From contig JAHBWV010000001.1 in NCBI GenBank assembly GCA_019636845.1, forward strand, positions 2,108,001-2,172,000: a stretch of 64,000 nucleotides of DNA, written 5' to 3'. The translations under genes and the position numbers were made by a program. This stretch comes from Phycisphaeraceae bacterium. GTDB taxonomy: Bacteria > Planctomycetota > Phycisphaerae > Phycisphaerales > UBA1924. The notes beneath the pieces were generated by a model, which did no database searches, was not told the DNA's origin, and saw nothing but the letters and a program-made list of their open reading frames with translations. Of the stretch, positions 21,912-34,153 are shown piece after piece. Position 1 is the first letter of the stretch; each line of letters begins with the position of its first letter.

Positions 21912-23429
21912 CTATCGAGTCAGTTCGCCGAGATCGACGACGTATCCACCTGGAAAGTATGCGTCAACGTTGAGGGTGTTCTCGTCGATGCTTGTCAGGA
22001 CGACGCAGGCGCGGCCGAGGCGTGCGGCGTAGTCGAGGTCGCCCTCGCTGGGTCCTGCGTACTCGCGGTTCTGAGACTTCTGCACGTGGAAGTGGTAGTG
22101 CGCGAGGGCGCGGTCGCTTGCGGAGATGAGATCTTCTGACGCGACGAACTTGCGGTCGCCGAGGCGGTTGCTGGGTCTGGGTGGGTACATCGTGACGAGG
22201 AAGGATTCGCTCGCTGCGACGGAGATCATGCCTCCGTACTCGGTGGTTGTGTCGGCTCTGTCCATGGCAATCTGGGAGTAGAGCGCATCGCGGACTGCGA
22301 CCTCACGGATGGCATCGTCGAGCACGAGGAGGACGAGGAGATCACCCCAGACGAGATTGGCTTCCTGGCGGTCGAGGCGTTCGGGGATCTGCTTGGTGTA
22401 GTCGACGCCTACGGCTCGTTCGTATGTCCTGCGGCCCTGCACGCGTGTGCGGAGTTCGGAGAGGAGTTCCTCTCGGGAGGCACGCAACCAGTCCGGGCGT
22501 TTGGCGGCGGCCCAACGGACGTGTTCGAGGTGGAGGAGCCGGAGCCCTTTCACCTGGTCTTCTCGGAGCGTTGAGACTGCGGAGCGGGTGCTCCCCCACC
22601 ACGCGGCGTTTGCCTTCTTGGCGGGATCGCGGAGATTATCGAGCCAGCGGAGTTCCTCGCCGTTGCGGGGGACGACGCGCATCTCGGTGTAGCATGCGCG
22701 GAGGTCGTTGAGGGTTCGATCATCCTTCGGGAACTCGACGCCTGACTGGGGGGAGACGAGCGAGGCGCGAAGCGAGCCGTCGGCATCGAGGCGTGCGAGG
22801 ACATCCCACGCGGCGGCGCGGGTGCGGAGATCCCAGCGGAGTTTGTAGGGGCCGGGATCGGTCTGCGGATTCATGAAAACATCGAAGGCGACGCGGGCGG
22901 GATCGACGCCGGGGTGGAGGCGCTCGATGGCTCGGCGTTCGACGCGGGTTGGCTCGGGCTCTTCGGGCTGATCGGTGGCCCATTGGCGGATGATGGCGGG
23001 GGTCATGTCGGCCCAGCCGCGCTCCGCGCTGAGGTTGCAGAGGTAAGTGGCGATGGGTCGGCTCTGCTCGTTGGGGAGGAGCAGCTTGGCCATGGAACGG
23101 CTGTCGGCCAGTCCTTCAGGGTCTGTGTCGTTCATCAACTGATCGATGACAGCCAAGCGGACGATCCACGGCACGTTGGAGGACCAGGCGAGGTCTTTGA
23201 AGGACTTTCGGACGGCGTCGCGCTCGAGACCGTTGCCGTTGGCGGGATCACTCTCGGCCCATGCGATGACGGCGGCGTCTGCGCGGCGCTGCGGGGAGAG
23301 TTTGGGATCGCGGACGCGCGTGAGCGAGTCGTTCTCTTGCGCGGAGGAAGAGCAACCGCCGAGAGAGAAGGCACCGGCGAGGAGCATGGGTATGGTGAGG
23401 AACAGCACGAGGTTCGCGCATCGCTTCAT
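21912..23429 (-). CDS. lipoprotein with JAMM-like C-terminal domain, function unknown
   Basis: A 505-residue lipoprotein: signal peptide LVLFLTIPMLLAGAFSLGGC with the lipobox Cys near residue 26. The middle is helical and Glu/Arg rich, without a family I recognise. The last ~110 residues have a pattern resembling JAB1/MPN (JAMM) metalloproteases: a Glu in EYGGMIS (about 397), HYHFH (444-448) and GPSEGD (459-464), i.e. HxH followed by SxxD. The spacing between HxH and SxxD is longer than the classical seven residues, so metal binding is an inference. The ATG at 23429 is chosen for the signal peptide; a TAAACT box lies 8 bases before it. Confidence 0.7.
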   Translation of the reverse strand: MKRCANLVLFLTIPMLLAGAFSLGGCSSSAQENDSLTRVRDPKLSPQRRADAAVIAWAESDPANGNGLERDAVRKSFKDLAWSSNVPWIVRLAVIDQLMNDTDPEGLADSRSMAKLLLPNEQSRPIATYLCNLSAERGWADMTPAIIRQWATDQPEEPEPTRVERRAIERLHPGVDPARVAFDVFMNPQTDPGPYKLRWDLRTRAAAWDVLARLDADGSLRASLVSPQSGVEFPKDDRTLNDLRACYTEMRVVPRNGEELRWLDNLRDPAKKANAAWWGSTRSAVSTLREDQVKGLRLLHLEHVRWAAAKRPDWLRASREELLSELRTRVQGRRTYERAVGVDYTKQIPERLDRQEANLVWGDLLVLLVLDDAIREVAVRDALYSQIAMDRADTTTEYGGMISVAASESFLVTMYPPRPSNRLGDRKFVASEDLISASDRALAHYHFHVQKSQNREYAGPSEGDLDYAARLGRACVVLTSIDENTLNVDAYFPGGYVVDLGELTR

Positions 23430-23437
23430 GGTGGCGG

Positions 23438-23443
23438 AGTTTA
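23438..23443 (-). promoter_or_regulatory. putative -10 box (TAAACT) 8 bases before the lipoprotein gene
   Basis: TAAACT on the minus strand sits eight bases upstream of the ATG at 23429, predicting a transcript start within one or two bases of the codon. It would drive the lipoprotein and M48 protease genes. Confidence 0.35.
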
Positions 23444-23478
23444 GCAGCGTTGCGATGGAATGATCGCGCTGGATCCGG

Positions 23479-24822
23479 TCATGAGCGGGGCGGGATGGGT
23501 CGCTGATGCGGATCGAGCGGCGTGCTGGGCTCGGGGGGTTCGAGGCGGACGTGACGGTCGGGATCGACGGCGTGTTCGAGGCGCATGGCGGCATCGTGGA
23601 CGTGGTCTGGGGCATAGCCGCCTCGTTCGACGAGGTAGGACTCCCAGAGTCGGTGAGTTCTGACGAGCGATGTAGCGTTACGGCGTCCTGTTTCGGTGAG
23701 GCGCAGGTTGCCGTTCTCGGAAATGAGGAGGCCGAGCCGTGTGGCGCGAGCCGTGGCGAGTTTCAGGGTCAGCCCAGAGGAACCGATGGTTTCGGCGGCC
23801 AGCTCGATCTGAGCGGGCCGGGCTCGCTCTTCCATGCGATAGACCCATGCGAGGAGGTCTTCTGTGGCGATGGTGATGGCGAGTCTTGTACGCCTGACCG
23901 AGCGAGCGATCACGCCGTGTCGAGGGCCGAGGAGCATCGCTGAGGCCATCGCAACACCCGAGACGATGGCGATCATACCGGATGCGCTCACGGAGCGGGA
24001 TGCGCCGAACCAGCCCGGCCCGAACGCCGCGAGTGTGTACCCGCCGACAGCGCAGCATGCGGCGATGAGCACGGAGGTGAGGACCTGTGAACGGAGGCGA
24101 TCTGTGAGCATCCTGGCTGCTGCCGGCGGACAGATCAGCATGGCGATCACGAGGATGGAGCCGACTGCCTCGAATGAGGCGACGGTCACGCACGCGACGA
24201 GGACCATGAAGACGCCGTTGACGGCCGATGCGGGGAAGCCGAGCGAGGTGGCCAATCCGGGATCGAAGCAGACGATGCGGAGTTCCTTGAAGAACACGGC
24301 GACGAGGATGGAGACGACCACTGCGACGATGGCGAGTGTCCAGACCTGGCGCGGGAGCGAGGCGATGGCGTCCCATGTGAGTACCTGGGACCACTGATCG
24401 GGGACAAACCAGATCATGGCTTCCAGCAGGCCGTTGAGCACGCAATCGGCGTCGAGATCGACCTGTCTGCCTGCTCCGCGTTCGAGCATGAGCACGCCGA
24501 GTGCGAAGAGGACACTGAAGACGACGCCCATCGCGGCACCGGGTTCGATCCGTGTGTACCTGCGCATCGCTTCGACGAGCCCGACGGTGACAATGCCCGC
24601 TGCGGCGGCGCCGATGAACATCGGGAGGGGATCGCGCGTGCCGGTGATCATGAACGCGAGCACGAGCCCGGGGAGTACGGCGTGCGAGATGGCATCGCCC
24701 ATGAGACTGACGCGACGGAGGACAAGGAAGTTCCCGAGCAGAGCGCACGAGACGCACGCGAACGTCGCTGCGAGGATCGGGCCGAGATCGATCGAGAGGA
24801 ACTCGTGGAGGGCGGGGCTCAT
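23479..24822 (-). CDS. metal (Mn/Zn/Fe-type) ABC transporter permease fused to a DtxR-like domain
   Basis: A 447-residue protein. Residues 1-310 are an ABC-3 family permease (TroC/MntB/ZnuB type) with eight or so membrane segments, starting with the typical LLGNFLVLRRVSLMGDAISH and ending VIARSV. Residues 317-447 resemble an iron-dependent repressor: a winged-helix-like part (EDLLAWVYRMEE, RLGLLISENGNLRLTETG) and a dimerisation/metal-binding part. Positions aligning with DtxR metal ligands are His390, Glu394, His409, Glu416 and His417; the DtxR Cys102 position is Met. The start ATG overlaps the stop of the upstream permease gene (ATGA). Confidence 0.9.
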   Translation of the reverse strand: MSPALHEFLSIDLGPILAATFACVSCALLGNFLVLRRVSLMGDAISHAVLPGLVLAFMITGTRDPLPMFIGAAAAGIVTVGLVEAMRRYTRIEPGAAMGVVFSVLFALGVLMLERGAGRQVDLDADCVLNGLLEAMIWFVPDQWSQVLTWDAIASLPRQVWTLAIVAVVVSILVAVFFKELRIVCFDPGLATSLGFPASAVNGVFMVLVACVTVASFEAVGSILVIAMLICPPAAARMLTDRLRSQVLTSVLIAACCAVGGYTLAAFGPGWFGASRSVSASGMIAIVSGVAMASAMLLGPRHGVIARSVRRTRLAITIATEDLLAWVYRMEERARPAQIELAAETIGSSGLTLKLATARATRLGLLISENGNLRLTETGRRNATSLVRTHRLWESYLVERGGYAPDHVHDAAMRLEHAVDPDRHVRLEPPEPSTPLDPHQRPIPPRS

Positions 24823-26126
24823 GGGTCCCTCCCCGGCCACTGGGTCGGCGGATCGAGCGCGTCTTCTGCGGCGATCTCGGCTTCGAGCCGGGCGAGAATG
24901 GCGGGGTCCACGACGTGCTCGACGGCGTCGGCGGTGAGATCGACGTGGGATGCCGCGATATCGGCGTGGCGGATGAGATAGAGGCGCCAGAGACGTCTGC
25001 GTCGATCGGCGAGCCGTGCGGCGGCGAGCCCCGCGTCGGTGAGGGCGACCATGCGTTCGTCGCATCGGACGAGGCCCCTGCGTTGGAGCATCGCCCGCGC
25101 GAGAAGCCCGCTGAGGCCTGGCGGAAGGGCCGTTTCGATGGGCATGGGGCCGACGGTAGCGAGGTGGAGCATGGCGTGATCGGCCTGGATGCGCGTGCGG
25201 ACGCTGAGTTGGCGGATGATTCCTGCGACGAGTCCCCGGCTGGGCGCGAGCAGCATGCCGAGCAGGAAGATCGCGCCGGCGACCAGGACGATGGCGGGCC
25301 CGGCCGGGACGCGCGCGAAGGAGGCAGAGATGACTGAACCCACGAAGGCGGACACGCCTCCGGCGGCGGCGCTGAGTGCGGCGAGCGGCATGAGGCGATC
25401 GGTCCAGAAGCGAGCGGCTGCGGCAGGGATGATGAGGAGCGCGACGATGAGGAGGAGTCCGACGGCCTGTAGACCGACGGCGCAGACGATGACGACCAGT
25501 GCCATCAGTGCGGCATCGATGAGATCGACTCGCAGGCCGAGCGACCTTGCATATGCCTCATCGAAGGCGACGACGCGCAGGCGTCTGAAGAGCAGGGCCA
25601 CGAGCGCGATGGAGGTGAAGGCGACGGCACCCATCAGTCTGGCGTCGGTGGCGCTCATGGCGGCGGTCTGCCCGAAGATAAATGTCTTCAATCCACCTTG
25701 ATTGCCCGCCTCCATGGTCTGGATCACACTGAGCAGGACAACGCCCACGCCGAACCAGACGCTGAGCACCGCGCCGATGGCTGCGTCTTCGGTGAGGCGT
25801 GTGGCCCTGACGATCCACTGGATCGCGAGGAGACCCGTGGCCGCGCCGATGGCTGCGCCCGGGAGCAGCACGGCCATGGAGCGGCCGTCCATGCCGATCG
25901 CGTTGCCGATGATGAAGGCGGTCGCGATGCCGGGGAGTGTGGCGTGTCCGACGGCGTCGGAGATGAGCGAGCGTCGCCTGAGCATCACGAAGACACCGAC
26001 GAGCCCGGCTGCGATTCCCAGCAGTGTCGCGCCGACGAGGACGAGGGTGGTGTTGTGGCCGGCGCGGAACGTGGCCGCGTCGATGATCGCGGCCCATGTG
26101 CCTGAGTTGTCGGGCCCGCTGATCAC
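24819..26126 (-). CDS. second metal ABC transporter permease with DtxR-like C-terminus
   Basis: A 435-residue partner permease of the ABC-3 family (TroC/ZnuB type; LVGVFVMLRRRSLISDAVGH near residue 33). Residues ~312-435 again look like a DtxR winged helix plus dimerisation domain (RRGLVRCDERMVALTDAG, then RRRRLWRLYLI and DAVEHVVDP). The Glu-His pair of the primary site is kept, but other ligand positions are Arg or Asp, so metal sensing here is doubtful. The start is a GTG at 26126 whose GTGA overlaps the ATPase stop; the next gene is likewise coupled by ATGA. Confidence 0.87.
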   Translation of the reverse strand: MISGPDNSGTWAAIIDAATFRAGHNTTLVLVGATLLGIAAGLVGVFVMLRRRSLISDAVGHATLPGIATAFIIGNAIGMDGRSMAVLLPGAAIGAATGLLAIQWIVRATRLTEDAAIGAVLSVWFGVGVVLLSVIQTMEAGNQGGLKTFIFGQTAAMSATDARLMGAVAFTSIALVALLFRRLRVVAFDEAYARSLGLRVDLIDAALMALVVIVCAVGLQAVGLLLIVALLIIPAAAARFWTDRLMPLAALSAAAGGVSAFVGSVISASFARVPAGPAIVLVAGAIFLLGMLLAPSRGLVAGIIRQLSVRTRIQADHAMLHLATVGPMPIETALPPGLSGLLARAMLQRRGLVRCDERMVALTDAGLAAARLADRRRRLWRLYLIRHADIAASHVDLTADAVEHVVDPAILARLEAEIAAEDALDPPTQWPGRDP

Positions 26127-26950
26127 GTGCCGCGCTCCGCGCGTGCGACTGCCTCGCTCGCTTCGGCGAGCAGCGTCAACCTTCCGCCGTATGTGCGTCG
26201 CAGGTTTTCGGGCGTGAAGGCGGCGGAGACGGTGCCGCTCGCGACGATGCGCATGTTCATGAGGACGACGTGATCGAAGTATGTTTCGACGGTTTGGAGA
26301 TCGTGGTGGACGCAGATGACTGTGGTGCCTCTGGCGCGGAGGTCGTGGAGCAGCCGGACGATCGCCCTCTCTGTTGCGGCGTCGACGCCCGCGAAGGGCT
26401 CGTCCATGAAGTAGAGATCGGCTTCCTGGGCGAGAGCGCGGGCGAGGAAGACGCGTTGCTGCTGTCCACCCGAGAGTTGGCTGATCTGTCGCGACTCGAA
26501 GCCGGCGAGTCCTACGCGATCGATGCACTCGGAGGCGGTCTGTCTGTCTGCGCGTGAGATGGGTCTGAGCCAGCCGGCCCGGCCGTATCGGCCCATGCAG
26601 ACGACATCCATGACGGTGACGGGAAAGTCCCAGTCCACGGCCTCGCGCTGGGGAACGTAGCCGACGCGCAATCGGGCATCGCGGTACGGGCTTCCCCAGA
26701 ACTCGACGATGCCGGAGGCGCGTTTGACAAGTCCGAGGCAGGCCTTGATGAATGTGCTCTTTCCCGCTCCGTTCGGGCCGATGATGGCGATCATCGAGCC
26801 CGCGGGCGCGTCGAAGTCGACATCCCAGAGGACCGGCTTCCGCTGGTACGCGACGGTCATGGCGTGGACCGAGAGGGGGCTGTCGGCCGAGTGTTCGGGA
26901 CGATCGAAGAGGAGTGATCCGGGTGAGTTTGATCGTGACTCGTTGGCCAT
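26123..26950 (-). CDS. metal ABC transporter ATP-binding protein
   Basis: A 275-residue ABC ATPase that powers the two downstream permeases. Walker A GPNGAGKST, Q-loop YVPQREAVDW (typical of the TroB/MntB/ZnuC branch), ABC signature LSGGQQQR, Walker B LYFMDEP and the switch His in CVHHD are all present. It has a ~27-residue N-terminal extension. Its stop overlaps the GTG start of the first permease. Confidence 0.95.
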   Translation of the reverse strand: MANESRSNSPGSLLFDRPEHSADSPLSVHAMTVAYQRKPVLWDVDFDAPAGSMIAIIGPNGAGKSTFIKACLGLVKRASGIVEFWGSPYRDARLRVGYVPQREAVDWDFPVTVMDVVCMGRYGRAGWLRPISRADRQTASECIDRVGLAGFESRQISQLSGGQQQRVFLARALAQEADLYFMDEPFAGVDAATERAIVRLLHDLRARGTTVICVHHDLQTVETYFDHVVLMNMRIVASGTVSAAFTPENLRRTYGGRLTLLAEASEAVARAERGT

Positions 26951-26999
26951 CGGTATTGCTCGGGGCGCGCGTGAAGGTGTGTACGGAGGGTGCTTTGCC

Positions 27000-28025
27000 T
27001 CAGTGGGGATCGTCGCTGCGTGGAGAGGGTTCGCCTGAGGCGCGGAGTCCGCCTTCCGGGACTGTGCCTCCGAGGGCTTCGGTTATGGTGCGGACGTTGT
27101 GATCGATCATGCCGATGTATGTGCCTTCCCACGTGCCGGGCTTGCCCATGGCGTCGGAGAAGAGGGAGCCGCCTATGCGGACGGTGTGTCCACGCGCTCT
27201 TGCACCCGCGATGATTGCGTTGATGTTTCTTTCGGAGACGGTTGACTCGACGAAGATCGCGCGGATGCTCCGCGACGCGATAAGTTCGACGAGGCGTTCG
27301 ATGTCACGCACGCCCGCTTCGGATTCGGTCGAGATGCCCTGTACGCCTCGGACTTCGAGCCCGTAGGCCCTGCCGAAATAGGCGAAGGCATCGTGAGCGG
27401 TGAGCAGGACGCGCGAGGCCTCCGGGATGGTTGCGATGGCACGCGCGGCGTATGCGTCGAGCGCGGTGAGACGCGAGGCGTATGCGGCGGCTCGCTGCTC
27501 GTAGAGGCGGCGGCCTTCCGGGTCGAGCGTGGAGAGGGTGTCGCGCACGGCGGGGATCGCCTCGGCCCAGAGGGCCGGATCCATCCAGACGTGCGGGTCG
27601 GGGTGGTCGTCTGCGCCGTCCGGCGACAGGAGGCGTTCACGGGGCACGGACTCGGCGACAGCGAGCACTGGCTTCCCGGTTGAGGCGATTCGCTTGAGTG
27701 TGTCGGCGAGTTTGCCCTCCAGTTGCAAGCCGTTGGTGAAGATCGCATCGGCTCGGGCGAGCGCGGCGATGTCGGCGCGGGTGGGCTTGTAGAGGTGTGG
27801 GTCGACGCCCTCGCCGATGAGCACTGTGAGACGGATGCGGTCGCCACCGATCTCGCGGACCATGTCGCCGACCATGCCGGTCGTGGCGACGACGGTCGGC
27901 TGCTGTGCAGCGACTCGGGTTGAAGCGAGTGCGGCGTCAGAGTACGCCAGCACCAGTCCGACGATGATGACGGGGAGGGAGATCGCGATGAGCGGTACTC
28001 GCAGGAAACGGGGTGGTGTCTGCAT
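27000..28025 (-). CDS. metal ABC transporter substrate-binding protein (cluster A-I, Mn/Zn/Fe type)
   Basis: A 341-residue exported binding protein with a membrane/signal segment (LIAISLPVIIVGLVLAYSDAALA). The four metal ligands expected in PsaA/MntC/TroA proteins are visible: His in DPHLYKPTRAD, His in DPHVWMDP, Glu in FVESTVSERN and Asp in LFSDAMG. A Glu at the third site is typical of manganese or iron-type members rather than ZnuA, which uses His, so manganese is my first guess. The ATG at 28025 has GGACGGAG-like sequence upstream. First gene of a four-gene operon with its own promoter. Confidence 0.93.
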   Translation of the reverse strand: MQTPPRFLRVPLIAISLPVIIVGLVLAYSDAALASTRVAAQQPTVVATTGMVGDMVREIGGDRIRLTVLIGEGVDPHLYKPTRADIAALARADAIFTNGLQLEGKLADTLKRIASTGKPVLAVAESVPRERLLSPDGADDHPDPHVWMDPALWAEAIPAVRDTLSTLDPEGRRLYEQRAAAYASRLTALDAYAARAIATIPEASRVLLTAHDAFAYFGRAYGLEVRGVQGISTESEAGVRDIERLVELIASRSIRAIFVESTVSERNINAIIAGARARGHTVRIGGSLFSDAMGKPGTWEGTYIGMIDHNVRTITEALGGTVPEGGLRASGEPSPRSDDPH

Positions 28026-28081
28026 GTGCGGCTCCGTCCTCTCGGCGTGAGAGGGGTGGGCCGGACGCGGCCCGGGCGTCA

Positions 28082-28110
28082 ATTGTAGCATTGGCTACGG
28101 TTGGATGCAA
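28082..28110 (-). promoter_or_regulatory. promoter with overlapping palindromic operator of the metal-uptake operon
   Basis: On the minus strand TTGCAT (28110-28105), a 17-base spacer and TACAAT (28087-28082) form a good sigma-70-type promoter, about 57 bases from the ATG. The perfect inverted repeat GTAGC-CAAT-GCTAC (28098-28085) spans the spacer and enters the -10 box. This is the layout of a repressor operator, and a DtxR/MntR-type regulator is the obvious candidate. Confidence 0.75.
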
Positions 28111-28148
28111 GGAGGGCTCGGCGGCTCGATTCTGGGTGAAGGGGAGGT

Positions 28149-28406
28149 TCAGACCTGAGGAGTCGGCGTGTTGTCAGCAGGGCGGAGAGTGGTCTGGAGT
28201 CGCTTGACGATTGCGTCGGCCTCTTCAGCGGCTGTCGCGATGGCTTTGAGCCGCTCGATGCAGGCGGAGGATGTTACGGGTTGAGCGGCTTCGAGGAGCG
28301 TTGCCGCACCGAGCCGGATCACGAAGAGTCGGTTGTTCAGTTCGTGGATCAGTTCGCGGGGGATCGCGACGCTCGAAGCCTGGCCTTGATTGGGTGCGGC
28401 TGTCAT
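28149..28406 (-). CDS. small stand-alone histidine-kinase dimerisation-like protein
   Basis: An 85-residue protein whose core looks like one DHp/HisKA domain and nothing else. IHELNNRLFVIRLGAATLL near residues 20-38 resembles the H-box of NtrB-type kinases (H[DE]xNNxLxxI), and a second helix with AEEADAIVKRLQ follows. There is no ATPase domain, so it cannot autophosphorylate in the usual way. It could be a phosphotransfer protein or a dimerisation modulator, or a remnant of a kinase. Its ATG at 28406 has no close partner gene; it is divergent from hrpA. Confidence 0.6.
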   Translation of the reverse strand: MTAAPNQGQASSVAIPRELIHELNNRLFVIRLGAATLLEAAQPVTSSACIERLKAIATAAEEADAIVKRLQTTLRPADNTPTPQV

Positions 28407-28488
28407 GGGTGATCATTCGCTGCCTGGGGCGGGTGCGCCGGACGAAACGGATACTGCTGCAAGAGACTGTTCGGTTTGATCGGGCGGA

Positions 28489-31400
28489 GTGTCGTTCGGG
28501 ACGCTACAAATCTGCTGCGTGTCGGAGCACCTTCGCCAACTTGAAGCCAACCTTGAGCTCTGTACGAGGGCGGACAGAAGGCGTCTGGGCATGAGGTTGC
28601 GTCTGATAGAGCGTCCGGAGGGGGGGCGCGGCAAGCGAGGGGATCAGAGACGAGGGGGACCGCCGGGGCAGGCAAGGGATTCGATCGCAGCGCTCGGGCG
28701 TGACATCGACCTGGCGATCGCACGACGCCAGGAACGGGCGAGGCGTCTCCCACGCCCATCGTTTGACATGGACCTGCCGGTGCTTGCCAAGCGCGAGGAG
28801 ATCGCCGAGGCGATTTCGAAGCATCAGGTCGTGATCGTGTGTGGTGAGACGGGATCGGGAAAGACGACGCAGCTGCCGAAGATCTGTCTGTCGCTGGGGC
28901 GTGGGATCGACGGGTATATCGGGCATACGCAGCCGCGCCGGATCGCGGCGCGGAGTGTTGCGGCGCGTCTTGCGGAGGAGTTGAATTCGGCTGTGGGTTC
29001 GGATGTCGGGTACAAGGTGCGGTTTGGTGATAAGACATCTCCTCAGACGTATATCAAGGTGATGACCGACGGCATTCTGCTCGCGGAGACGCAGGGCGAC
29101 CGGATGCTGGACAGGTACGACACGCTCATCATCGATGAGGCGCATGAGCGGAGTCTGAATGTTGACTTTCTTCTCGGGTACCTTCGGCGGCTGCTGCCGC
29201 GGAGACCGGACCTGAAGGTGATCATCACTTCAGCGACGATTGATCCGGAGCGGTTTGCGATCCACTTCAAGGACGGGCAGGGGACGCCGGCGCCGATCAT
29301 CGAGGTATCGGGGCGGACGTTCCCTGTTGAGATCCGGTATCGCCCGCTGGTGTCGGAGGCGCACGCGGATCTGGATGGAGAGCCGGTGCAGGAGGATCGT
29401 GACCTTGAGACGGGCGTGCTGCATGCGGTGCACGAGCTCGCGAAGGAGGGGCCCGGGGACATCCTGGTGTTTCTGAGCGGCGAGCGGGAGATCCGCGATC
29501 TGGCGGAGTCGCTGAGGAAGCACCATCCGCCGCAGACGGAGATCCTGCCTCTTTATGCGCGGCTGTCGGCGGACGAGCAGATGCGTGTGTTCAAGCGTCA
29601 CGGGGGTCGTCGGATCGTGCTGTCGACGAATGTTGCGGAGACATCACTGACGGTTCCGGGTATCCGGTATGTGGTGGATGCGGGAGAGGCGCGTATCAGC
29701 CGTTACAACGCGCGGTCGAAGGTGCAGCGTCTGCCGATTGAGGCGATCTCTCAGGCGTCGGCGAACCAGCGTTCTGGGCGGTGCGGGCGTGTGGCCGAGG
29801 GTGTTGCGATCCGGCTGTATAGCGAGCAGGACTTTCTCGGGCGCGACAGGTTCACGGACCCTGAGATCCAGCGGGCGAACCTTGCGAGCGTGATCCTTCA
29901 GATGAAGGCGCTCGGTCTGGGCTCGGTCGAGGCGTTTCCATTCATTGATCCGCCGGATTCGCGCCAGATTCGCGACGGATACGAGACGCTGAGGGAACTC
30001 GGAGCGACGGACGACCGCGGGGAGCTGACACAGATCGGCGTGCGGCTCTCGAAGATGCCGATCGATCCGCGGGTGGGGCGGATGATCCTTGCGGCGGAGC
30101 ACGAGGGGTGTCTGGAGGAGGCGTTGGTGATCGCGGCGGCGTTGTCGGTTCAGGACCCGCGTGAGCGTCCTATGGAACTGGCGGAGAAGGCGGACGCGGC
30201 GCACCTTGAGTTTCGCAACGAGGAGTCGGACTTTCTCGGCATCCTCGGGCTTTGGAGGTTTGCTCGCGAGCAGGAGCGGCACCTCTCGCACAGCAAGTTT
30301 CGCAAGATGTGCAAGGAGAAGTTCATCAGCTTTGTTCGCTTGCGTGAGTTGGAGGACATCCACAAGCAGTTGCGATCGCTGGTGCTGGAGATGGGTGTGA
30401 GGGACAGTTCCGCGCCGGACAAGCCGGATCTGATCCACCGCGCGTTGCTGACGGGATTGCTGACGAGCGTGGGGAAGAAGGAGGAGGATCGGGAGTATGC
30501 GGGCTGCCGCGGGCTGAAGTTTGTGATACATCCCGGATCCGGGATCAGCAAGCGCCGTCCCGGGTGGATCATGGCTGCGGAGCTTGTGCAGACGACACGG
30601 CTGTTCGCGCGGACGTGCGCGAGGATCAATCCTGAGTGGATCGAGGAACTCGGCGGGCACCTGCTCAAGCGGAGCCATAGCGATCCGATGTGGGATGGGC
30701 GGAAGGGGCGTGTGCTCGCGAACGAGAAGGCGACGCTGTATGGGCTTGAGGTGGTATCGGGACGGCGTGTGGACTTCGGCAAGATCGATGCGCCAGAAGC
30801 GAGGGCGATCTTCATCCAGCAGGGTCTGGTTGAGGGTGAGGTTCGATCGGGCGTGCCGTTCATCCGTCGGAACCGCGCCTTGATCGAGGACGCCAAGGGG
30901 CTTGAGGCGAGGGCGCGGACGCGGGATCTCTTGGTCGATGCGGGAGCGTTGTACGGGTTTTACAACGAGCGGCTGCCGGCGGCGGTGCATGATGTTCCGT
31001 CGCTCGAACGTTGGTGGGCACGGGGCGCGAGAGAGGATCAGAACCGGTTGTACATGTCGCACGAGGATGTGCTGCGACGGGATGCAGGGAGCGTTGATGA
31101 TGAGATGTACCCCGAGCGGCTGCCGGGAGAGGGGTTGGAGCTGCCCCTGAGTTATGTGTACCAGCCGGGTGACACGGAGGACGGAGTGACGGTGACCGTG
31201 CCGCTGGAGGCGCTGGGCGCGTTGGATGAGGCGCGGCTGGAGTGGCTTGTGCCGGGGATGGTTCGGGAGAAGGTTCTCACGATCGTGAAGGCGCTGCCGA
31301 AGCAGTTGCGAAGGTTGTATGACGCACCCGCGCTTGCGGAGCGTGTGCTGGCTTCGCCGGGACGGGGGAAGCGACGTCTTGCGGATGTGGTGCGGGAAGA

Positions 31401-32469
31401 GATGTCGAGGTTGGCGGATTTCCCGGCTCCCACGCTTGACGAGATCGCGCGGGCGTTGCCGGACTATCTTCGGATGAACGTGCGTGTGCTCGATGCGAAC
31501 GGCGAGACGATCGGAGAGGGGCGTGATCCGGTCGCGCTCAAGCGTGGATTGCAGGATCGGGTTCGGAAGAGTCTGGCGTCGATGGCGGCGGGGAGCTTCA
31601 ACAGAGATCGTGTGGAGCGTTGGGACATCGGCGATCTGCCTGATTCGGTGCGCGTGGAGCGAGGGGGCGTGGCGGCGGAGGCGTTCCCCGCGCTGGTCGA
31701 TGAGGGGAAGCACGTTGCGTTGCGGGTGTTGCCGAGCGCGGACGCGGCTGCGGAAGCGATGCGCATCGCGCTGCCTCGGCTCTACATGCTGGAGCATCCG
31801 GGCGCGTTCTCGAACCTGAAGCGGCTGCTTCCGGGGCTGCAGACGCTCACGCTTGCGTACGCGACGATCGGGAACGCGGAGGAGTTGAAGCGGGATCTGC
31901 TGTGGCTTGTCGCCTACCGGGCGTTCATGCCGGAGGGCGAGATCGCGAGGACGGAGAGGGACTTCCGGGAGCGTGCCGCGGCCGGGTACTCGGGGGTGGA
32001 CTCGGTCGCATCGGAGGTGGTCGAGACGATCGGCGCGGTCCTGAGGGCTCATCAGTCGCTCCGGCTGCGGATCGCGGGAATGAGCGCGCCGCTGTTGCGG
32101 GATGTCGTGGCCGAGGTCGATCGCTGGGAGACGACGCTGATCTATAAGGGGTTCCTAGTGATGACGCCGTGGGAGCGGCTCGTGCATCTGCCTCGGTACA
32201 TCAGGTCGGGCGAGCACCGGCTGATGAAACTCGGGAATGCCGGGCTTCAGCGTGATGCCCGGATGGCGGAGCAGATCGCCCCCTATGAGCGTCGGCTGGT
32301 CGAGCGGGTCCTGTCGCACCGGGAACGGGGGATCGTTGACATGAAGCTCGATCGGTTTCGCTGGATGCTGGAGGAGTTCCGAGTGTCGCTGTTCGCGCAG
32401 GAACTGGGGACGGCGGAGACGGTCTCGCCGAAGCGGCTGGAACAGGCGTGGGCAGAGGTGCGGGCGTGA
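28489..32469 (+). CDS. hrpA: ATP-dependent RNA helicase HrpA (DEAH box)
   Basis: A 1326-residue DEAH-box helicase that E. coli uses in mRNA processing and rescue of stalled ribosomes. Motifs: Walker A GETGSGKTTQLP near 117, DEAH, TSATID, SGEREIRD and motif VI NQRSGRCGRV. Winged-helix, ratchet and OB-fold regions follow, then the long DUF3418 C-terminal domain typical of HrpA. The GTG at 28489 is chosen because the N-terminal residues (LRQLEANLEL..RADRRRLG) align with the E. coli N-terminus; an ATG at 28591 with AGAAGG upstream is the alternative. Confidence 0.94.
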   Translation: MSFGTLQICCVSEHLRQLEANLELCTRADRRRLGMRLRLIERPEGGRGKRGDQRRGGPPGQARDSIAALGRDIDLAIARRQERARRLPRPSFDMDLPVLAKREEIAEAISKHQVVIVCGETGSGKTTQLPKICLSLGRGIDGYIGHTQPRRIAARSVAARLAEELNSAVGSDVGYKVRFGDKTSPQTYIKVMTDGILLAETQGDRMLDRYDTLIIDEAHERSLNVDFLLGYLRRLLPRRPDLKVIITSATIDPERFAIHFKDGQGTPAPIIEVSGRTFPVEIRYRPLVSEAHADLDGEPVQEDRDLETGVLHAVHELAKEGPGDILVFLSGEREIRDLAESLRKHHPPQTEILPLYARLSADEQMRVFKRHGGRRIVLSTNVAETSLTVPGIRYVVDAGEARISRYNARSKVQRLPIEAISQASANQRSGRCGRVAEGVAIRLYSEQDFLGRDRFTDPEIQRANLASVILQMKALGLGSVEAFPFIDPPDSRQIRDGYETLRELGATDDRGELTQIGVRLSKMPIDPRVGRMILAAEHEGCLEEALVIAAALSVQDPRERPMELAEKADAAHLEFRNEESDFLGILGLWRFAREQERHLSHSKFRKMCKEKFISFVRLRELEDIHKQLRSLVLEMGVRDSSAPDKPDLIHRALLTGLLTSVGKKEEDREYAGCRGLKFVIHPGSGISKRRPGWIMAAELVQTTRLFARTCARINPEWIEELGGHLLKRSHSDPMWDGRKGRVLANEKATLYGLEVVSGRRVDFGKIDAPEARAIFIQQGLVEGEVRSGVPFIRRNRALIEDAKGLEARARTRDLLVDAGALYGFYNERLPAAVHDVPSLERWWARGAREDQNRLYMSHEDVLRRDAGSVDDEMYPERLPGEGLELPLSYVYQPGDTEDGVTVTVPLEALGALDEARLEWLVPGMVREKVLTIVKALPKQLRRLYDAPALAERVLASPGRGKRRLADVVREEMSRLADFPAPTLDEIARALPDYLRMNVRVLDANGETIGEGRDPVALKRGLQDRVRKSLASMAAGSFNRDRVERWDIGDLPDSVRVERGGVAAEAFPALVDEGKHVALRVLPSADAAAEAMRIALPRLYMLEHPGAFSNLKRLLPGLQTLTLAYATIGNAEELKRDLLWLVAYRAFMPEGEIARTERDFRERAAAGYSGVDSVASEVVETIGAVLRAHQSLRLRIAGMSAPLLRDVVAEVDRWETTLIYKGFLVMTPWERLVHLPRYIRSGEHRLMKLGNAGLQRDARMAEQIAPYERRLVERVLSHRERGIVDMKLDRFRWMLEEFRVSLFAQELGTAETVSPKRLEQAWAEVRA

Positions 32470-32520
32470 CGGGGATGTCGGGTGAAGGGAGGTGCGTGAG
32501 GTCGCGACCCGACCGAACGC

Positions 32521-32555
32521 TTGACCCGCGTATTCACGCATTGTATACTTATGCA
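32521..32555 (+). promoter_or_regulatory. argR promoter with ARG-box-like inverted repeat, predicted leaderless
   Basis: TTGACC (32521-32526), a 17-base spacer and TATACT (32544-32549) make a near-consensus sigma-70 promoter. The -10 ends five bases before the argR ATG at 32555, so transcription should start at the codon itself. TGTATA-CT-TATGCA (32542-32555) is an inverted repeat matching at 5 of 6 positions and resembles an ArgR box. It covers the -10 and the start, a natural site for autorepression. Confidence 0.75.
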
Positions 32556-33001
32556 TGGACGAGCAGCACCGGCGCAGAGAGATTATCCACGACATGCTCG
32601 GGCGGGGACCGATCGAGAGCCAGGAGAAACTGGCGGAACTGCTGGGACGCCACGGCATCAAGGCGACACAGGCGACGATCTCGCGGGACCTGCGAGAGAT
32701 CGGAGCGGTGAAGGGGCCGGATGGGTATGTGCTGCCGGTCCTGAATCCGACGGGCAACGAGCTGGGGCTTGAGCGTGCGCTGCGTGGGTTTGTGAAGAAC
32801 GTCGATCGCGGGGCGACGATGGTGGTGATCAAGACCGGGCCGGGGCACGCGAACGTGGTGGCACTGGAGTTGGATCGCTCGCCGCCCCAGGGAGTGATCG
32901 GGACGATCGCGGGGGATGACACGATTTTCATAGCGACACGCTCGGAGCGTGCTGCAGTGCAACTCGTCCACCGGCTTCGGTCTCTGGGCGGATTGGCGTA
33001 G
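32555..33001 (+). CDS. argR: arginine repressor ArgR
   Basis: Arginine-responsive DNA-binding regulator, 148 residues, usual length. The N-terminal winged helix-turn-helix contains TQATISRDLREIGAVK. The C-terminal hexamerisation and arginine-binding domain contains GPGHANVVALELD and GTIAGDDTIFIATRS, including the paired Asp residues that contact arginine. It heads the arginine cluster argR-C-B-F-G-H and probably controls it and itself. The start is fixed by the promoter placement and by alignment of the N-terminus. Confidence 0.96.
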   Translation: MDEQHRRREIIHDMLGRGPIESQEKLAELLGRHGIKATQATISRDLREIGAVKGPDGYVLPVLNPTGNELGLERALRGFVKNVDRGATMVVIKTGPGHANVVALELDRSPPQGVIGTIAGDDTIFIATRSERAAVQLVHRLRSLGGLA

Positions 33002-33076
33002 GACGGCTGGTGGAATTGATCTCGGCGCTGTGGATTGGCGAGATGTGCGGCATTTGAACGACGAGTTGATGGCACC

Positions 33077-34153
33077 TTGAAGGACTCACTGAACATCTCG
33101 ATCGTTGGCGCGAGCGGGTATACCGGGGGCGAGCTCGTCGAGCGGCTGCTCGGTCATCCTCACACGCGGATTGTCTCGCTGCTCGGGTCTGAGGCAGCAC
33201 CAGGGGCGAAGGCGGAGCCCCGTTCTTTCGACGCGCTCTTTCCGCGGCTGCGAGGTCGGGTCGGCATGCCGATCCTGGCTCTGGATTCGCGCGAGTTGTG
33301 CGATGCTGAGGTGGATGTGGTCTTTCTGGCGACACCCCACGAGACGAGCATCGCTCTTGCTCCGCGGCTGGTTGACGCCGGGAAGCGCGTGATCGACCTG
33401 TCGGGAGCGTGGCGGCTCGGGAGCGCGGCCCGAACCAAGGCAACTTACGGACTCTCCATCGATCGGCCGGAGTGCTTTGAGAGCGCGGTGTACGCGCTGG
33501 TCGAGATCAACCGGGAGAAGCTCAGGGATGCTTCGCTGGCCTCCAACCCGGGGTGCTATCCGACGGCGTCGATCCTGGCGATCCACCCGCTGGTGAAGGC
33601 GGGGGCCATTCGGCTCGGCACGCGTCCGATCATCGACGCGACGAGCGGCGTCTCCGGCGCGGGGCGTGCGCCCAATGCGAGGACGACGTTCGGAGAGGTG
33701 AGTCTCCAGCCGTACGGCGTGCTGAATCATCGGCACGCTCCGGAGATCGAGCTGCACGCGGGCACGGGGGTGGTGTTCACGCCCCATCTCGGGGCGTACG
33801 ACCGAGGGATCCTCGCGACCATCCACGTTGAGCTTGGGCCGGGATGGACGGCTGCGCGGATTGACTCGCTGTATCGCGAGATGTATGCGAACGAGCGATT
33901 TGTGCGCCTGCTTCCGCTGGGGGAGTGGCCCTCTGTCGCGGGCGTGCGTCATACGAACTTCTGCGACCTGAACTGGGCTGTGGATGAGAGCCACGGGCAC
34001 CTGATCGTTGTGAGCGCGATCGACAACCTCGTGAAGGGGGCGTCGGGTCAGGCGATTCAGGCGATGAACGTGATGCACGGCTTGCCCGAGCATCTCGGGC
34101 TTCTGGATGACGGGCTCGGCGCGTCGGCGCTGGCGAGCAAGGGGGGTGCCTGA
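33077..34153 (+). CDS. argC: N-acetyl-gamma-glutamyl-phosphate reductase
   Basis: Third step of arginine synthesis: NADPH-dependent reduction of N-acetylglutamyl phosphate. Rossmann motif GASGYTGGELV is at the N-terminus, the nucleophile Cys is in SNPGCYPTASI, and the His region TPHLGAYDRGI is present. A TTG at 33077 gives 358 residues with the usual N-terminus; another TTG at 33035 is possible, and neither has a strong ribosome site. Its TGA shares a base with the argB ATG. Confidence 0.95.
   Translation: MKDSLNISIVGASGYTGGELVERLLGHPHTRIVSLLGSEAAPGAKAEPRSFDALFPRLRGRVGMPILALDSRELCDAEVDVVFLATPHETSIALAPRLVDAGKRVIDLSGAWRLGSAARTKATYGLSIDRPECFESAVYALVEINREKLRDASLASNPGCYPTASILAIHPLVKAGAIRLGTRPIIDATSGVSGAGRAPNARTTFGEVSLQPYGVLNHRHAPEIELHAGTGVVFTPHLGAYDRGILATIHVELGPGWTAARIDSLYREMYANERFVRLLPLGEWPSVAGVRHTNFCDLNWAVDESHGHLIVVSAIDNLVKGASGQAIQAMNVMHGLPEHLGLLDDGLGASALASKGGA

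Follow-up and report, generated by a model that had tools for sequence, protein, structure and literature searches.

The importer operon and its upstream region

The window, by which we mean the whole 64,000-nucleotide stretch of Phycisphaeraceae DNA that was analysed, carries a metal-importer operon on the minus strand. The gene order is substrate-binding protein (SBP), ABC ATPase and then two ABC-3 permeases, each of which ends in a PF02742 domain, the metal-binding and dimerisation domain of the DtxR family. The SBP is of the ZnuA/MntC/AztC type (27000-28025, minus strand; PF01297, 5.7e-80), and its start was set at 28025 because a signal-like peptide comes next. The ATPase gene lies at 26123-26950 (minus strand; PF00005, 1.2e-27). 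Permease 1 (24819-26099, minus strand, start approximate; PF00950, 2.6e-53) has its DtxR-like C-terminal domain at 24876-25040 (profile match to PF02742, 1.1e-6), and permease 2 (23479-24822, minus strand; PF00950, 1.6e-44) has the corresponding domain at 23491-23697 (PF02742, 1.5e-15).

Zinc and manganese models describe the SBP about equally well. The best named NCBIfam model is the zinc protein AztC at 213 bits, a small margin over MntC at 200 bits, and both scores are below the cut-offs. For the ATPase the top NCBIfam model is the manganese protein MntA, also below its cut-off. We infer that manganese may be the metal carried.

On the minus strand, the region upstream of the operon reads TTGCAT-CCAACCGTAGCCAATGC-TACAAT. 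The -35-like hexamer TTGCAT (28105-28110) is 17 bases from the -10-like hexamer TACAAT (28082-28087), and the perfect palindrome GTAGC-CAAT-GCTAC (28085-28098, minus strand) overlaps the latter. This palindrome is a 5+5 inverted repeat with a gap of four bases that spans the promoter spacer and the -10 hexamer, just as an earlier, sequence-only reading of the window had described it. Measured against the consensus the promoter is weak (3/6 for the -35 and 5/6 for the -10 hexamer), and TTGCAT-N17-TACAAT is not among the promoters listed by a promoter scanner.

Two further genes near the operon may be mentioned. An 85-residue open reading frame without a family match (28149-28406, minus strand) contains HELNNRLFVIRL, which we take to resemble a histidine-kinase H-box. 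An ArgR-type arginine repressor gene is located at 32555-33001 (plus strand) and is followed by open reading frames that by eye resemble arginine-synthesis genes. An Rfam search of positions 22000-34000 and a tRNA scan of the window gave no lead.

Within the window the palindrome has two matches when one mismatch is allowed, a number that is equalled in eight of 100 shuffled sequences. The perfect form GTAGC-N4-GCTAC occurs once in the 3.67-Mb genome, at the site in the window, and 27 further sites carry one mismatch. Fourteen of these 27 were inspected with a crude test, which placed eight within coding-like open reading frames and six outside. In the genome scan that the sequence-only reading had proposed, the one perfect copy is that of the operon; the one-mismatch copies gave no lead, and we claim no target in this genome besides the operon. 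On its own the palindrome is barely above chance; it is set apart by its conservation upstream of orthologous operons.

Conservation of the palindrome in relatives

The SBP was searched in 61 genomes including that of the window, with a match in 59, and the upstream regions of 50 operon loci, one per genome, were compared. The site is present with at most one mismatch at 30 of these loci. Its half-site letters are near-fixed, and the four letters of the spacer are variable. Weaker conservation extends to either side, with a T before the site in 24/30 and an A after it in 25/30. The palindrome is therefore kept in the orthologous upstream regions, the comparison on which the sequence-only reading had wished its proposal to be judged.

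A hexamer that agrees with TATAAT in at least four of six positions is found at the offset of the window's -10 element in 23 of the 30 aligned relatives, in part because it has letters in common with the operator. The -35 signal peaks exactly 17 bases from the -10 hexamer but is weak, with at least 4/6 agreement in only five of the 30.

The site follows a free-standing MntR

In the genome of the window PF02742 has three matches, one in each permease and one in a free-standing protein. The latter is encoded outside the window at G000:C1:3323110-3323601, about 1.2 Mb from the operon. It shares 42% identity over 125 residues with MntR of E. coli K-12 (E 4e-28), and the best of 22 solved sequences is again E. 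coli MntR (PDB entry 2h09, 1.6e-27). The motifs EDYVE, RH and EGIEHH align with the MntR proteins of 2h09 and 6kta and are kept in 31 relatives; we take their residues to be the manganese ligands. This mntR gene is unlinked to the operon, and no site of this kind is present within 700 bases of it. The genome also has three Fur-family genes. The earlier statement that free-standing DtxR, MntR and Fur genes are absent consequently holds at most for the window, and for the genome it fails, with one MntR and three Fur-family genes located elsewhere.

The free-standing regulators of the 61 genomes were divided into a short MntR type (E of at most 2e-30 against the protein of the window's genome; 33 genomes) and a canonical type (free-standing and above 100 bits for PF02742; 22 genomes). 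One genome (G018) has both types and seven have neither. When one mismatch is tolerated, the site stands ahead of 28 of 28 operons from genomes with only the short MntR, 24 times in perfect form, and of 0 of 17 operons from genomes with only the canonical type (Fisher p 9e-13, kinship ignored). These two classes are drawn from the 50 loci after setting aside G018 and the four loci of the neither-type class (G004, G011, G029 and G030). G018 has the site with one mismatch (1/1). The neither-type class has it at one of four loci, and G004 and G030 provide only 0 and 74 upstream bases, respectively; the positive case is G029, an 81%-complete assembly that has a perfect site upstream of the operon and in which no MntR was found.

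On a tree of 47 SBPs, which omits G004, G011 and G059 and in which G018 is entered as short type, the regulator and site labels each change eight times, and they do so together. Independent pairs on well-supported branches agree in 4/4 cases (sign test p 0.125). When all 1024 five-base half-sites with a four-base gap are ranked in the MntR class (the 28 short-only loci plus G018), GTAGC comes out on top with 24 of 29 loci, and the next half-site reaches four. The canonical class has a different upstream palindrome, TTTGA-N4-TCAAA, at nine of 17 loci, six of them in the form TTTTGA, which the long DtxR-type regulator probably uses as its operator. Since GTAGC-N4 belongs to 24/29 loci of the short class and TTTGA-N4-TCAAA to 9/17 of the canonical class, the regulator appears to have been swapped together with its operator under the same operon.

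When the comparison was widened to 80 loci of named genomes, of which at least L258, L272 and L311 come from genomes already present in the first set, the picture was similar but looser. A linked canonical-type gene is present at 18 loci and the site at 0 of these 18. Of the 17 loci at which a full-length MntR gene is linked, ten have a GTAGC site with at most one mismatch or an ATAGC-type site; this count leaves aside L318 (105 bits) and L303, where MntR is split into two pieces. The MntR loci without such a site are L283, L312, L319, L321, L330, L332 and L333; among these, L312 carries TTAGC-CTAT-GCTAA and L283 carries TTAGC-N4-GCTAT.

In E. coli K-12 the sequence ATAGC-CTTT-GCTAT stands just before mntH, and ATAGC-ACAG-GCTAT is present between mntS and mntR. 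A passage in PMC9806134 states that manganese-loaded MntR represses both mntH and mntS in that organism. The palindrome of the window is very probably an MntR box, because it is conserved, co-occurs with MntR, resembles these E. coli sites and also precedes mntH in relatives. The suggestion that a metal-responsive repressor site overlaps the uptake promoter is thus strengthened both by conservation and by the agreement between regulator type and site in 45 of 45 operons with a single regulator type.

Alternative readers of the palindrome

A repeat that arose by chance and has no function would agree with the window taken alone, in which the shuffled sequences deny it significance. Against this stand the division of the operons into 28/28 and 0/17 and the pattern of near-fixed half-sites around a variable four-base spacer, which render an accidental origin exceedingly improbable. 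Reading by a Fur-family protein (Fur, Mur or Zur) draws on the three such genes in the genome, but the family is present in 61/61 genomes and therefore cannot explain the same division. The palindrome moreover resembles the MntR sites of E. coli and is presumably unlike the 19-base Fur box, so that we regard a Fur-type reader as very unlikely.

The sequence-only reading had pointed to the permease-fused domains as candidates. Cleaved as in the chlamydial YtgC-YtgR or still bound to the membrane, these DtxR-like domains could read the palindrome and provide feedback from the transporter onto its own promoter. Both permeases carry the domain. That of permease 2 can be aligned with DtxR starting at the first helix, and its model (mean pLDDT 95.7) shows a winged helix joined to a long helix that emerges from the membrane part, with DtxR and IdeR as the closest folds. 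YtgC-YtgR itself is a precedent for a permease-repressor fusion, and fusions of this sort are reported from 11 phyla (PMC5599777). The fused domains do not track the site, however. They occur in 26/28 genomes of the short class and also in 13/17 of the canonical class, where the site is absent; in the two site-bearing genomes that lack them, G037 (97% complete) and G035 (86%), the free-standing protein is the sole PF02742 match. Their recognition-helix region is variable among 16 permease-2 and 13 permease-1 domains, in an alignment that left some fused domains out, while the operator is conserved, and in E. coli a near-identical box is served by MntR only. Reading by the fused domains is accordingly very improbable, and the free-standing MntR is retained as the preferred reader.

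What is kept in the permease-2 domains of the relatives is the dimer and metal-binding part, with the motifs HRLWE, DHVH...EH and DPHGxPIP. Alignment A2 contains the domain of the window and 30 of 33 permease-2 domains, with L308, L309 and L313 unused and L258 and L276 shortened. In permease 1 of the window RRLWR takes the place of HRLWE, and its metal site therefore looks damaged. A loss of the winged helix from the fused domains was initially supposed, given the poor alignment of that part among the relatives; for permease 2 of the window this is refuted by the alignment with DtxR, the model and the fold match.

Recognition helix and outer half-site base

The recognition-helix sequence GVSHVTVxR is strongly kept in an alignment of 31 MntR proteins that does not include E. 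coli MntR and near copies; in G015 it reads GVTHVTVVR. Where both the helix and a perfect TAGC-N4-GCTA core could be read, His in fourth place of the motif (GVSH) goes with an outer G in 35/35 cases, and Gln in that place (GVxQ) goes with an outer A or T in 4/4, E. coli among them. The association (Fisher p 1e-5, kinship ignored) comes from a hand count and a rule that was fitted after looking, and at a few of the loci the core stands a long way from the gene and is perhaps not an operator. Cores with one mismatch loosen the rule: in L321 and L333, His goes with A or T.

A link between an Arg/Lys position of the helix and the outer base (G in 40/40 with Arg and in 4/9 with Lys) was likewise fitted post hoc and was set aside. 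Lys41 of the Bacillus protein, which matches this position, is placed at other base pairs in PMC11275975, and for this reason the neighbouring His/Gln position is preferred.

Sites elsewhere in the relatives

NRAMP genes of the MntH kind (E below 1e-130) are present in eight of the 61 genomes. In G010 and G036 the site precedes mntH, perfect in the former and with one mismatch in the latter, and both genomes have MntR. In G011, an 88%-complete assembly in which no MntR was found, mntH is likewise preceded by a perfect site. At the mntH genes of G007, G042, G045, G054 and G056, all from genomes without a short MntR, the site was found in 0/5, and no site lies ahead of the weak-scoring NRAMP-like genes.

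Perfect sites are also located close before an OprB porin gene (G008:C234, L191 site 138) and before two genes of the Phenol_MetA_deg family (G009:C20, L187; G012:C12, L204). Judged from site position and family, these are candidates for manganese-regulated outer-membrane channels. In G025 a perfect site is close before a DUF2065-like gene. Several other perfect sites fall inside likely genes and may be due to chance.

Perfect sites that belong to twins lie close upstream of two genes whose products show a pilin-like methylation motif at the N-terminus (G016:C29, L188; G020:C14, L189). Pilin-like genes are an odd target for a manganese regulator, and this arrangement is found in two genera. 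The palindromes of such twins are 16 to 30 bases apart (G016 L188, 2341-2374; G020 L189, 2319-2354; G009 L187, 2237-2280), and twins are also present upstream of the SBP gene in L288, L297 and L336, suggesting paired MntR dimers on one promoter.

Discussion

The palindrome is most likely the operator of a free-standing MntR of the E. coli type that would silence the importer operon in a manganese-dependent manner. In a cytoplasm with sufficient Mn(II), a metal-loaded MntR dimer would bind GTAGC-N4-GCTAC, cover the spacer and the -10 hexamer and exclude RNA polymerase, thereby silencing the operon. When manganese is scarce, MntR would release the operator. Binding by MntR, the dependence on manganese and repression at the importer promoter are what we infer from the genomic patterns described above. 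One MntR box predicted in S. maltophilia is also placed between the -35 and -10 elements, according to a passage in PMC13217887.

A broader picture can be sketched tentatively, and we put it forward as possible rather than likely. There may be two layers of sensing, in which MntR acts through the palindrome while the permease domains sense cytosolic metal and throttle the transporter, their reading of DNA being largely lost. The transcriptional layer would have been exchanged repeatedly (MntR with GTAGC, DtxR with TTTGA), and the outer base would follow the helix residue, with G for His and A or T for Gln.

For this type of metal-uptake operon in the Phycisphaerales (Planctomycetota), the analysis provides a probable regulator and operator. 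It also separates an easily confused pair: the free-standing MntR, to which transcriptional control most likely belongs, and the fused permease domains, for which the evidence indicates another role. The matched regulator-operator pairs at 45 operons amount to a natural experiment in the exchange of a transcription factor without losing control of the target. The biology is ordinary, and its testable extras are the joint exchange of regulator and operator and the His/Gln residue that follows the outer base. A search on MntR in planctomycetes, MntR operators and regulons, and fused permeases (with few subscription journals) found no paper on this operator in Planctomycetota among the titles and openings of abstracts listed.

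Three known systems are close enough for comparison. The long canonical DtxR regulators of the Phycisphaerales, usually of about 220-260 residues, adjoin the orthologous operon in many relatives and have their own palindrome there; the genome of the window has none. With chlamydial YtgC-YtgR the operon shares a metal ABC permease with a C-terminal DtxR-like winged-helix domain, but here both permeases are fused, the genome additionally encodes a free-standing MntR, and the site occurs irrespective of the fused domain. Repression of its own operator by the fused domain, by which kinship with YtgC-YtgR was judged, is not what the distribution across genomes indicates, this being an indirect test.

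The closest system is that of E. coli MntR. The half-site has G as its outer base here and A in E. coli, and the recognition helix has His (GVSH) in place of Gln (GVSQ). Furthermore, the site precedes an ABC importer rather than mntH, and mntR is unlinked and has no site of its own. Shared by both are the short two-domain MntR and an xTAGC-N4-GCTAx repeat at metal-uptake genes.
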